Of a DNA stretch of 64,000 bases, positions 15,753 to 59,613 are shown piece by piece. Position numbers and translations under genes: made by a program. The DNA is from Bacillus sp. es.034 (GTDB lineage Bacteria > Bacillota > Bacilli > Bacillales > Bacillaceae_B). The notes beneath the pieces are model-generated. The model searched no databases, was not told where the DNA came from, and saw nothing but the letters and a program-made list of their open reading frames with translations. The DNA is taken from NCBI RefSeq assembly GCF_002563655.1, contig NZ_PDIY01000001.1:2950001-3014000 (forward strand), given 5' to 3'. Numbering within the stretch: position 1 is the stretch's first letter; every line of letters begins with the position of its first letter.

Positions 15753-15903
15753 ACTCTTATCCAGAGAGGTGGAGGGATCTGGCCCTATGAAGCCCAGCAA
15801 CCTACGTATTGTAAGGTGCTAATTCCAGCAAAATGTGAAGTCATTTTGGAAGATAAGGTAACCTTACCTGAACAACTTTCCAAAATGGGAAGTTGTTTTT
15901 TTC
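15753..15903 (+). promoter_or_regulatory. SAM-I riboswitch (S-box) with terminator
   Basis: The leader contains the S-box core in order: CTCTTATCCAGAGAGGTGG, GGGA, GGCCC, ATGAAGCCCAGCAACC and AAGGTGCTAATTCCAGCA, then GATAAG closing P1. An intrinsic terminator follows (AACAACTT...AAGTTGTT and a T-run, about 15871-15902). When S-adenosylmethionine is abundant, transcription stops before yezD and the cysH operon. B. subtilis uses the same type of leader for its cysH operon. Confidence 0.95.
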
Positions 15904-23868: not shown

Positions 23869-23897
23869 AACCAATATCAAATCAATCTTTAGTTTTT

Positions 23898-24062
23898 CAC
23901 TCATATAATAGCGGGGATATGGCCCGCGAGTTTCTACCGGATTACCGTAAATGATCCGACTATGGGTGAGCAATGATAGGTGCGTCTTTATGGGCGCTCT
24001 TTGCCTAACCCAAAGGTCATTGTCTCACTCTGATGTGAGCACAATATCCTTTGGGTTTTTTA
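23898..24062 (+). promoter_or_regulatory. Purine (guanine-type) riboswitch with terminator
   Basis: The aptamer (about 23898-23969) shows CACTCATATAAT, GGATATGGC, GTTTCTACCGG, CCGTAAA and GACTATGGGTG, the conserved core of the xpt riboswitch. The C in GACTATGGG is the specificity base, predicting guanine/hypoxanthine rather than adenine. The expression platform ends in a terminator in which AACCCAAAGG (24007-24016) pairs with CCTTTGGGTT (24048-24057) before a T-run. Guanine should switch xpt-pbuX off. Confidence 0.95.
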
Positions 24063-56177: not shown

Positions 56178-57590
56178 TCAGTCTGTTCCTTGTATGGTCT
56201 TTAAAGCGTGGAGGATTTCCATCTGCTCGTCCATGGAAACGGTCCGGAGATCAAAGAGTGTGACACCGTCCTGGATCCTTGTAAGAATGGAAGGATTCCC
56301 CCTTCTGAACTTTTCATGAATAAGCTGTGATGAATCAAAAGCGTGGGAGACAGTGACAATGTACGTGTCTAATTCCACATCCGGCATCGTTCCTCCCCCG
56401 ATCTGACTTTGTCCTTCAATGATGGATGAGGTGTAACCGCTCCCGAGTCCCTGTACATCCTCCACGAACTTCCGGGACTGATGCAGGATTTCTTCTTTGG
56501 GCCGGGTGATGGCTCTGATGGTTGGATTCTTCTCTTGTTCCTCCCCCTTTATGTATTGTAATAGAGTCATTTCCAGAGCGGCCAGTGTCATCTTATCTAC
56601 CCTGAGGACGCGGGCAAGCTGATGCTTCTTTAATTTATCGATCAAACCCTTTTGTCCTGCAATGATTCCGGCCTGAGGTCCCCCTAATAATTTGTCTCCG
56701 CTGAATGAGACGATGTCTGCCCCTTTATCAAGCACTGACTTAACCATAGGCTCATCTCCAATTCCCAGTCGGGTGAAATCGTAAAGAGCACCGCTTCCTA
56801 AATCTTCATAATAATGGACATTGGAATGCATGCGGGATAATTCAGCGAGTTCTCCCGTCTGTACAGAAGCAGTAAACCCTTTCATGACAAAATTACTTTG
56901 ATGAACCTTCATGATCATTCTAGTTTCATCGTTCACCGCTTCGTCATAGTCTTTTAAATGGGTCTTGTTTGTTGTGCCTACCTCATGAAGGAGAGCGCCG
57001 CTTTCTTCCATGATAGAAGAGATCCGAAATGATCCGCCGATCTCCACCAATTCTCCCCTTGAAACAATCACTTCTTTTTGCTTGGCAAGAGCAGTAAAGA
57101 TAAGAAAAACAGCTGCTGCATTATTATTGACAACCATGGCTGCTTCCGCCCCGGTCAATTCACAAATGAGCCTCTCTGCATGACTATGCCTCGAACCCCT
57201 GACACCTTCATCGATGTCATATTCCAGATTGCTGAAATGACAAGATGCAGTCATGACATGGTTCATCGTTTCCTGACCTAGCCGTGCCCGCCCCAGGTTC
57301 GTATGTAAGATGGTTCCTGTTGCATTTATGATCCTCCTGAGGGACAGGGAATGAGATTTGCGTGCCAAAGCTTCAGTTTGGCCAAATACCTCATCAATGA
57401 AATCTGTTGAAGATGGATGAGGTCCCTTCCACTCTTCATTCAGGATGCTCGTCCTGCAAATCGAGATCACCTTTTTCAAGAGGTCCGTCCCTCTTTCCGT
57501 CGAAAGGTTGTGATGATCGAGGAAAGTATGGAATTGTTTGGTCTGCTTCAATTCGTGTATGGATGGAATGTGTCTGACAAGATGGTTCAT
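56178..57590 (-). CDS. selA: L-seryl-tRNA(Sec) selenium transferase SelA
   Basis: SelA converts seryl-tRNA(Sec) to selenocysteyl-tRNA(Sec) using selenophosphate from SelD. The 470-residue PLP enzyme has INATGTILHTNLGRARL (88-104), the EYDIDEG region, VVNNNAAAVF, and the PLP lysine K300 in SFSGDKLLGGPQAG. Length and motifs match bacterial SelA. AAGAAGGGGC precedes the start. It is transcribed away from cotM and lies 1 kb from selD and the SelW-like selenoprotein gene. selB (elongation factor) and selC (tRNA) are not in the window. The gene is inserted among spore genes that adjoin in B. subtilis. Confidence 0.95.
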   Translation of the reverse strand: MNHLVRHIPSIHELKQTKQFHTFLDHHNLSTERGTDLLKKVISICRTSILNEEWKGPHPSSTDFIDEVFGQTEALARKSHSLSLRRIINATGTILHTNLGRARLGQETMNHVMTASCHFSNLEYDIDEGVRGSRHSHAERLICELTGAEAAMVVNNNAAAVFLIFTALAKQKEVIVSRGELVEIGGSFRISSIMEESGALLHEVGTTNKTHLKDYDEAVNDETRMIMKVHQSNFVMKGFTASVQTGELAELSRMHSNVHYYEDLGSGALYDFTRLGIGDEPMVKSVLDKGADIVSFSGDKLLGGPQAGIIAGQKGLIDKLKKHQLARVLRVDKMTLAALEMTLLQYIKGEEQEKNPTIRAITRPKEEILHQSRKFVEDVQGLGSGYTSSIIEGQSQIGGGTMPDVELDTYIVTVSHAFDSSQLIHEKFRRGNPSILTRIQDGVTLFDLRTVSMDEQMEILHALKTIQGTD

Positions 57591-57689: not shown

Positions 57690-58082
57690 ATGAGTAAGGA
57701 TAAGGAGGATTTCTATCTAGAGAAATGGGAGGAGAGTATGAAGGATTGGTTATTGGATCCTGCTACGGTTCAGTTGGATGAACAAGAATTCCGTGTGGAT
57801 TTTCTTGATACGACGGAATCGTTCATAGTGGAGATCGAGACAGAAAATATTTGTCCCGAAGAATTGATTATTAAAAAAAAGGATACGCAATTGCTGGTAT
57901 TGATCATGCTGAAAGACGAAAGTAAAATCAGAAAACGATCCATTCGTTTTCCTTTCTGCTTAAAACAACGGGCCATTACCTATTCCATAGAGCATCATAC
58001 AATCGAAATCAATGTGCCTAAAAAGGCATGTTCCACCCCCTCATCCATCGTGATTCGAGTTCAGGGATTGTCGAGTGAATAA
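57690..58082 (+). CDS. cotM: Spore coat protein CotM (HSP20-like)
   Basis: This is a 130-residue alpha-crystallin/HSP20-like protein (VDFLDTTESFIVEIETENI, later VLIMLKDESKIRKRSIRFPF and IEINVPKKA). It matches CotM of B. subtilis in length and position near sspO and sspP. CotM is a spore outer coat protein made in the mother cell, under sigma-K. GGGGGTCAGGTG precedes the start. It diverges from selA; the 99-base gap must hold both promoters. Confidence 0.88.
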   Translation: MSKDKEDFYLEKWEESMKDWLLDPATVQLDEQEFRVDFLDTTESFIVEIETENICPEELIIKKKDTQLLVLIMLKDESKIRKRSIRFPFCLKQRAITYSIEHHTIEINVPKKACSTPSSIVIRVQGLSSE

Positions 58083-58104
58083 CCGTCATTCTTTAAATAG
58101 AAGA

Positions 58105-58136
58105 AAAGGTCATCAGCCCGTGCTGATGACTTTTTC
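58105..58136. terminator. Bidirectional terminator between cotM and the SelW-like gene
   Basis: GTCATCAGC and GCTGATGAC pair around a short loop. AAAAG on the left and TTTTT on the right give T-runs for both directions. Confidence 0.88.
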
Positions 58137-58144
58137 TATGTGCT

Positions 58145-58384
58145 TTACTGCGACTCAATGATTGAAATGGTCTCGTTGATATCAGGAAAAACGCCTGTAT
58201 CGAGTTTGGAGTAAATCTTTTTACCGTCTACTGTAATCTCGAATGCCCCTCCGGAAGACGGTACTAACGTCAGTTCCTTGATATCGGATCTGAAATGGTT
58301 GAATAACTGTTCCGCGAAACTCGCGGCTTTAGGTGCATAGTTTCACATCATACAGAATTCAATCGTCATTTTCACAACGTTCAT
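58145..58384 (-). CDS. SelW-like (SelT/SelW/SelH, Rdx) selenoprotein with in-frame UGA
   Basis: Reading the minus strand from ATG 58384 (GGAAGGAGG upstream) gives MNVVKMTIEFCMM, then TGA at 58345-58343, then NYAPKAASFAEQLFNHF and onward to TAA at 58145. Read with TGA as selenocysteine, it is a 79-residue thioredoxin-like Rdx protein. The CMMU motif is at 11-14, and the family ending VPSSGGAFEITVDGKKIYSKL and FPDINETI follows. The CxxU motif is the expected redox site. A GUU-loop hairpin (58312-58326) follows the UGA. Neighbours are selA and selD. The partner and function of bacterial SelW proteins are unknown. Confidence 0.88.
58312..58326 (-). promoter_or_regulatory. SECIS-like hairpin of the SelW-like gene
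   Basis: On the minus strand CCGCGA-GTT-TCGCGG forms a perfect 6-bp stem with GUU loop. It begins 16 bases after the UGA at 58343-58345 and lies within the coding region, as bacterial SECIS elements do. Confidence 0.7.
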
Positions 58385-58499
58385 CAAAATCAGCCTCCTT
58401 CCAAGATCACTTCCACGTGTATGTTCATTTTATTATAGGGGGAATACTTGTGCAAATATTCAGTCCTCTCCATCTTTTCCATTTCTCTCTACTTCACCT

Positions 58500-58560: not shown

Positions 58561-59613
58561 ATGAGCAAGGAAGAGATCATCCGCTTAACAGAACTTTCTT
58601 CAAAAGCTGGCTGAGGCTGTAAACTTAGTCCTAGTGACTTGACGCAAGTTTTGCGTCAACTACCTCCTCAACCATTTACGAAAGAATTATTAGTAGGGAA
58701 TGAATCATCCGATGACGGCGGCATCTTTCAGCTGACAGATGACCTCGCTATGGTTCAAACGGTTGATTATTTCACTCCGATTGTGGACGACCCTTACCAA
58801 TTTGGTCAAATTGCAGCAGCAAATGCTTTAAGTGATGTGTATGCGATGGGTGGAACGCCGAAAACCGTTTTAAACATTGTAGGCTTCCCCATTAAGAAGC
58901 TTGGAAGCGAGATGCTTGCGGCTATCCTTAAAGGGGCACAAAGCAAAGTGATCGAAGCCGGTGCCGTAACCGTGGGAGGACATTCCATTGACGATCAAGA
59001 GCCTAAATTCGGCCTGAGCGTGACAGGAATCGTTCATCCGAAAAAATATTGGACCAATACAGGTGCCCAAGAAGGAGACGTCATTGTATTGACAAAGCCA
59101 TTGGGTGTTGGAATCCTGACAACTGGTATCAAGCGAAAGGTTGTGACTCCCTCCCAGGAAGCGTCTGTCATCGAGGTGATGAGCATGCTGAATAAAACGG
59201 CTGCAGAATTGCTGCGGAAATTTCATCCTAATGCCGTGACCGATGTGACAGGGTTTGGGTTAATGGGGCATGCATATGAAATGGCGAAAGGCAGTAACGT
59301 ATCAATTGAATTCTCTTATTCCTCCATCCCGCTTTTAGAAGGGACGAAGGAATTAGCAGATCAGGGAGTCATTCCCGGGGGATCAAAAGCGAACGCCACT
59401 TGGCTTCAAGACATGGTGCACTATGAAGCAGGCCTTACCCAGGAAGAACGATGGATCCTCTCTGATGCCATCACTTCCGGAGGTTTACTTGTCAGCCTGC
59501 CTCGTTCCGAAGGACAAAAATATGTAGAAGAACTTCAGCGCCACTCCATCTCTGCGAGTATCATTGGACATGTCCGACCACAGCGAACGTGGAGTATAAC
59601 GGTAGAAAAATAA
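58561..59613 (+). CDS. selD: Selenide, water dikinase SelD, itself a selenoprotein
   Basis: SelD makes selenophosphate from selenide and ATP. The gene starts at ATG 58561 (AGAGGTG upstream): MSKEEIIRLTELSSKAG, then in-frame TGA (58612-58614), then GCKLSPSDLTQVL. The resulting G-U-GCK is the active-site motif (usually GCGCK), with selenocysteine at residue 18. The rest shows DDGGIFQLTDDLAMVQTVDYF, GGTPKTVLNIVGFP, GGHSIDDQEPKFGLSVTG and TDVTGFGLMGHA. Total length is about 350 residues. Calling it from TTG 58639 removes the catalytic N-terminus. A GUU-loop hairpin follows the UGA at 58639-58659. Confidence 0.96.
58639..58659 (+). promoter_or_regulatory. SECIS-like hairpin of selD
   Basis: TTGACGCAA-GTT-TTGCGTCAA is a perfect 9-bp stem with GUU loop, beginning 24 bases after the UGA. 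The same A-GUU-U loop closes the hairpin of the SelW-like gene. Confidence 0.75.

Follow-up and report, generated by a model that had tools for sequence, protein, structure and literature searches.

Bacterial SelW-like selenoproteins have been known since 2005 or before, and their CXXU motif and the kind of SECIS element that accompanies them are familiar too, as passages of the papers cited here indicate. With 48 genes, SelW-like outnumbered every other selenoprotein family in the Sargasso Sea set, and the same text takes the CXXU motif to suggest a redox function and reports SelW as found to interact with glutathione (PMC1088965). The relevant passages of a 2006 survey give 10 SelW-like members, count three selenoprotein families for Firmicutes/Bacillales and note that SelW-like has Cys homologues rarely or not at all in organisms that use Sec (PMC1794560). 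A 2016 survey, in its corresponding section, has SelW-like proteins in 35 organisms (PMC5029168), and a 2026 review lists them as predicted with high confidence (excerpt of PMC13188914). Excerpts of two papers cite AOH51717.1 as a SelW-like example (PMC9312934, PMC13188914); this example quite possibly belongs to a member of Bacillota, in which case the gene described below would be less novel still. Among the listed matches from the SelW and selenocysteine literature, no title or opening of an abstract mentioned SelW in Bacillales, near-universal SelW among the Sec users of this order, or a place for the gene beside selA.

We analyzed a window of 64,000 nucleotides from Bacillus sp. es.034 that contains a selW-like gene. 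The gene resembles the known bacterial SelW-like selenoproteins (SELENOW-like, PF10262, as partially described in the sources above) in family, CxxU motif and bacterial SECIS, and differs from them in lying beside selA and selD in Bacillota and in being present, always with TGA, in 165 of the 397 genomes sampled from one order. We are nearly certain that the gene is functional and encodes a bacterial selenoprotein of the SelW-like (Rdx) family, with Sec at UGA codon 14 inserted through SelB and a downstream hairpin. Its less ordinary features are that it sits with selA in a Sec locus and is found in 164 of 179 selB-carrying genomes, while the FdhA of the same genome is without Sec.

The selW-like coding sequence runs on the minus strand at 58145..58384 and, from sequence, family match and conservation, encodes 79 residues from ATG to a TAA stop at 58145-58147. 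Its single in-frame TGA (58343..58345, minus strand) is codon 14, the proposed Sec of a Cys11-x-x-Sec14 site, and the translation begins MNVVKMTIEFCMMUNYAPKAASFAEQ. A Shine-Dalgarno-like AAGGAGG lies 9 nt 5' of the ATG (58394..58400, minus strand), and a terminator-like hairpin, found by consensus scan only, lies at 58102..58137, where selW and the Hsp20-like gene converge. The first-pass annotation had proposed that reading through the TGA yields a complete Rdx/SelW protein of this length; both the frame and the Rdx match extend across the codon, and the C-M-M-U, SSGGAFEI and YSKL motifs that it pointed out are all present in the translation. Without read-through, as it also remarked, 13 sense codons are left before the TGA, and the ordinary list of open reading frames holds no minus-strand frame of at least 40 aa at this position.

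Membership in the Rdx family was clear from profile searches, which had been suggested as a check of the candidate. Pfam Rdx (PF10262) matched SelW at 7.8e-22 and 77.7 bits (cut-off 22.6) over residues 5-77, on both sides of the TGA, and TIGR02174 of NCBIfam matched at 66 bits, nearly twice its cut-off of 34.2. The SelTWH_Campy equivalog NF041051 scored 78.7 bits, under its cut-off of 88. Six solved Rdx proteins (2fa8, 2obk and four others) aligned with SelW at E values of 1.8e-13 to 7.6e-9, and 2npb, an entry named Selenoprotein W, aligned weakly (E 0.019). The alignments to the six Cys-type structures cover the greater part of the domain and take in the CxxC/CxxU site; these proteins differ in being longer (103-108 aa), and in the two alignments inspected a Cys stands opposite the TGA codon of SelW. 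An AlphaFold model built with 16 aligned relatives had a mean pLDDT of 91.4 and the element order E-H-E-E-E-H (beta-alpha-beta-beta-beta-alpha), so that the predicted structure qualifies as a thioredoxin-like fold. In this model, C11-M-M-U14 lies ahead of the first helix, which starts at residue 17, and C11 and C/U14 were invariant in 16 of 16 alignment rows when TGA was read as C. The nearest named relative, from Rossellomorea vietnamensis NBRC 101237, was 99% identical over 73 columns, which makes Rossellomorea the probable genus of the window.

The TGA codon is conserved across relatives. A wider scan of genome contigs returned 44 SelW relatives, and a comparison of the TGA position, also suggested beforehand, gave a Sec or Cys codon in all 44: TGA in 42, TGT in one (L046, Cytobacillus eiseniae) and TGC in one (L049). 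We then considered 397 genomes of the window's order and found a SelW homologue (E <= 1e-3) in 165 of them, from 61 genera. The best match in each of the 165 carried one TGA at the site, counts that do not represent independent events since the sequences are related; they comprise 150 listed matches in 150 genomes and the 15 remaining genomes, which were searched again. No Cys form and no internal TAA or TAG occurred among the best matches of these 165 genomes. A second, fragmentary match in G097 had one TGA and one TAA. Downstream of the TGA, dN/dS was 0.03-0.25 in 12 of 14 pairs of relatives and could not be computed in the other two; the frame beyond the TGA is under purifying selection.

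The genome has the machinery to decode UGA as Sec. Loss of selA, selB or selC had been named in advance as evidence against the candidate, and we found all of these genes together with selD. The selA gene, for L-seryl-tRNA(Sec) selenium transferase, lies at 56178-57590 on the minus strand (TIGR00474, 534.7 bits, cut-off 267.9); selD in the window scored 400.5 bits in a profile search, selB in the genome scored 362 bits (cut-off 242), and the tRNA-Sec, over the Rfam cut-off, has the anticodon TCA. Together, the Rdx match, the TGA shared by all 165 homologues from the order and this machinery support the earlier proposal of a real selenoprotein.

Presence of selW closely followed presence of selB. 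Across 36 genomes of the genus, selW, selB over the cut-off and selD were each found in 30, and these were the same 30; the other six (G004, G011, G012, G013, G014, G022) lacked all three. In the order sample (n = 397), selB was present in 179 genomes: 164 genomes had both genes, 15 had selB only, one had selW only and 217 had neither. Fisher tests of the association gave 1e-92 for the order and 5e-7 for the genus, figures that are not true probabilities given the relatedness of the genomes. The one genome with selW only is G232, a draft assembly in about 480 contigs; its selW lies near a contig end, with a TGA-type selD at the same locus, so selB may have fallen into a gap of the assembly. 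The selB-carrying genomes in which no SelW homologue was found at E <= 1e-3 (15 of 179) were G043, G079, G088, G094, G135, G158, G215, G239, G256, G282, G318, G330, G343, G358 and G395.

These distributions bear on whether the TGA could be decoded without Sec-tRNA, for example by a near-cognate Trp or Cys tRNA, with the sel genes serving selD only. A Sec-type selD does accompany selB equally well in the genus, and Sec at the selW codon is a prediction from sequence. Against this, 217 of the 218 genomes of the order without selB over the cut-off had no selW homologue. Moreover, both Cys homologues have a reduced stem in the hairpin described below (four and three of six pairs), and the genome of L046 still has selB. 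We regard decoding by another tRNA as very unlikely, and as the alternative that fares best.

A hairpin that qualifies as a bacterial SECIS, with putative recognition by SelB, starts 16 nt after the UGA. Identified from conservation and covariation, it lies at 58312..58326 on the minus strand and has a 6-bp stem (CCGCGA/UCGCGG) and the loop GUU. The bSECIS consensus, as given in an excerpt of PMC13188914, has a loop of 3-9 nt, a stem of 4-16 bp, a G in the first two loop positions, a UGA-to-loop distance of 16-37 nt and an MFE <= -7.5. By that published outline, the hairpin in the window agrees on each point, with a loop of 3 nt, a stem of 6 bp, G at the first loop position, 22 nt from UGA to loop and -9.3 kcal/mol. 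We compared 175 sequences (174 loci and the window), of which 147 could be aligned at the hairpin site; compared across the codon and the 45 nt that follow, 90 of these were distinct, 88 with TGA and two with Cys. With respect to the same outline, the loop G was present in 88 of 88 distinct TGA sequences and the MFE threshold was reached in 85. All six stem pairs were complete in 82 of the 88, five pairs formed in four and four pairs in two. At the 29 other offsets tried (0-29 nt after the UGA), full stems were limited to a single instance at one offset. At the distant loci L045 (Verrucomicrobiota) and L047 (Planctomycetota), a stem CCGTC-GGTCT-GACGG occurs at equal distance in other letters, and at L054 and L055 the hairpin has only four of the six pairs.

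A stem of this kind could also arise simply from the codons chosen to encode the conserved AASFAE peptide. The stem does lie within conserved codons, and synonymous-codon shuffles, drawn from the codon usage of four genes in the window, already averaged 3.94 of six pairs. Nevertheless, the shuffles would yield full stems in 3.06 of 88 sequences, against the 82 observed. Pairs were also counted in an alignment of the 88 TGA sequences, from which the two Cys sequences were left out and in which the window stood for L014, identical over this stretch. Two-sided changes occupied 56 cells compared with 9.4 in the shuffles, none of the 500 shuffles was as high, and sliding the partners by one to three columns gave at most 13 such cells. 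The changes fell in five of the six pairs, a count that is a weak measure because 23 of the 500 shuffles also reach five two-sided pairs. Stems in the alignment included CCGCGA/TCGCGG, CTGCGA/TCGCAG, CCGCAA/TTGCGG and CCGTGA/TCACGG, and these compensatory variants argue against codon choice, which we find still less credible than decoding by another tRNA. The weakest alternative, a pseudogene in which an ancestral Cys-type SelW gene was broken by a nonsense mutation, would fit the 13-codon ordinary reading and the lack of a listed minus-strand frame of at least 40 aa, but the TGA conserved in every one of the 165 homologues across 61 genera, with no TAA or TAG in a best match, shows it to be wrong unless a whole clade lost the gene at once, and with low dN/dS beyond the TGA and a covarying hairpin we give it almost no weight.

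If the gene is a selenoprotein gene as we propose, SelD would make selenophosphate and SelA would convert Ser-tRNA(Sec) to Sec-tRNA(Sec). SelB would then bind the hairpin, which starts 16 nt further on, and deliver Sec-tRNA(Sec) to the ribosome at UGA codon 14. The result would be the full 79-residue thioredoxin-like protein with the active site Cys11-Met-Met-Sec14, in which Cys11 and Sec14 may cycle through a selenenylsulfide, the product acting as a thiol/selenol oxidoreductase. We infer both the insertion of Sec at codon 14 and the oxidoreductase role from knowledge of the pathway and of the family. A link between SelW and bacillithiol or thioredoxin would be a guess, and its partner may also be a protein.

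One relative suggests what happens when Sec is replaced. In C. eiseniae (L046, around 4040), SelW has Cys (TGT) and the stem is reduced to four of six pairs, while a TGA-type selD lies next door and selB is kept in the genome. The other of the two Cys sequences retains three of six pairs. In a poorly resolved tree of 45 SelW proteins (74 columns, 13 of 42 inner branches starred), L046 grouped with the Sec form of C. firmus, with support of 98/71 on a branch that was not starred. L046 is likely a Sec-to-Cys change with SECIS decay and retained machinery, a single case placed on that tree. It means that a Cys form exists in a related genus, though none was present in the order sample. The Sec-only pattern within the order agrees with the remark on scarce Cys homologues in the 2006 survey passage (PMC1794560).

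The selD gene of the same window is itself a TGA selenoprotein gene. Identified by profile match as encoding selenide water dikinase, it lies at 58561..59613 on the plus strand, and its TGA is codon 18 (58612-58614), within SSKAGUGC. A SECIS-like hairpin with a 9-bp stem, UUGACGCAA/UUGCGUCAA, and the loop GUU follows at 58639..58659 on the plus strand, supported by conservation. Like SelW, SelD thus combines an in-frame TGA with a downstream GUU-loop hairpin; it differs in being another protein, in the distance from UGA to hairpin start (24 nt versus 16 in selW) and in the stem (9 bp versus 6). Across 125 loci where the site could be aligned (68 distinct sequences), the selD codon was TGA, a sample that is not a fair one because most of these loci were fetched on account of selW or selD. 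The hairpin was in the same place in the 68 distinct sequences, with eight of eight pairs in 56, seven in 11 and six in one, and the loop was GTT in 50, GTG in 11, GTC in five and GTA in two. In the genus, 29 of 30 selD matches had one TGA. The remaining match, in G023 (G023:C1:3031338-3032042, L148), is partial, begins at profile position 77 and contains an in-frame TAG; the start of this gene does carry the TGA (L071, L148), and the gene may be broken or affected by a sequencing error. The mechanical list of open reading frames began selD 3' of its TGA, at TTG 58639, and the first-pass annotation included neither this TGA nor the hairpin of selW. We also searched the 4.5-Mb genome for the core CGCRRGKYTYGCG, which occurred three times (selW, selD and one further place), compared with two occurrences of a reversed-pattern control. 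By eye, the third place (L177) lacked a suitably spaced TGA on the matched strand and lay in a membrane-protein-like coding stretch, and we judged it to be a chance occurrence.

Maintenance of the Sec trait has been attributed to FdhA or SelD, according to passages of two sources (PMC1794560, PMC13188914). The selenoproteins we looked for in the window genome were Rdx (by protein search), FdhA and SelD, and its own FdhA has no TGA. In the genus, FdhA was over the cut-off in 10 of 36 genomes, with TGA in none of the ten, one of which (G022) lacks selB. The only TGA-type FdhA match of the genus, in G019 (G019:C118:33162-35153), scored 663.5 bits, just under the cut-off of 666.25. Set against the presence of selW and selB in the same 30 of 36 genomes, these counts indicate that SelW tracks the Sec trait better than Sec-FdhA in the genus, and Sec-type SelD tracks it as well as SelW does. 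In the order sample, 272 of 397 genomes had an FdhA match at 1e-150, with no internal stop among the best matches, which are the ones listed; TGA types may lie among the weaker matches.

We tentatively suggest that the order keeps its Sec machinery chiefly for SelW, a reading we hold to be possible and rather less likely than its opposite. In this reading, selW belongs to the sel locus, is nearly always of the Sec type and comes and goes with selB, and FdhA, the client usually credited with keeping the trait, is Sec-less or absent in the genus. The 15 selB-carrying genomes without SelW mean that it is not the only reason for Sec everywhere. If the suggestion were true, SelW would play an important part that demands Sec in these bacteria, many of which are aerobic. 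As far as the passages on trait maintenance go, the order looks like a place where SelW joins FdhA and SelD as maintainers of the Sec trait (PMC1794560, PMC13188914). The locus is also an unambiguous example of a small selenoprotein from Bacillus-type bacteria whose SECIS is readily visible, and the genus provides a strain set (30 with the gene, six without) in which to study the function of SelW and the reasons for keeping Sec.

The neighborhood of selW is largely conserved. The placement of the gene between selA and selD, as described in the first-pass annotation, was confirmed, with the addition of a convergent 130-aa Hsp20-like frame (57690..58082, plus strand) between selA and selW. This frame had no Pfam or NCBIfam match at 1e-3 and is named after the syntenic Cytobacillus spongiae gene, annotated as Hsp20/alpha crystallin family. 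We examined 34 Bacillota loci of the first scan, with flanks of 4 kb wherever the contig was long enough. In 33 of them, selA lay within about 4 kb of selW in the same direction; selD was nearby in 29, an Hsp20-like gene in 17 and selB in 10. None of these four genes was found near selW at L048 (Melghirimyces). Two layouts recurred: that of the window, selW-(Hsp20-like)-selA with a divergent selD, and a same-strand selB-selW-selA. Among loci from the order search, with flanks of 1.5 kb and species overlapping those of the first scan, selA, selB or selD was present in 45 of 47. No sel genes were found at ten loci outside Bacillota, a distance at which the queries are insensitive.

Gene callers had been expected to miss selW, and the one syntenic annotated record we examined agrees. 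The C. spongiae gene table, which is stated to be incomplete, reads selD - gap - Hsp20 - selA - acnA and has no CDS or other feature at the selW match. A gene of 165 of the 397 sampled genomes is omitted by the one table examined. Elsewhere in the window, a purine riboswitch (23881-23982) and a SAM riboswitch (15754-15859) were well over their Rfam cut-offs and appear ordinary.
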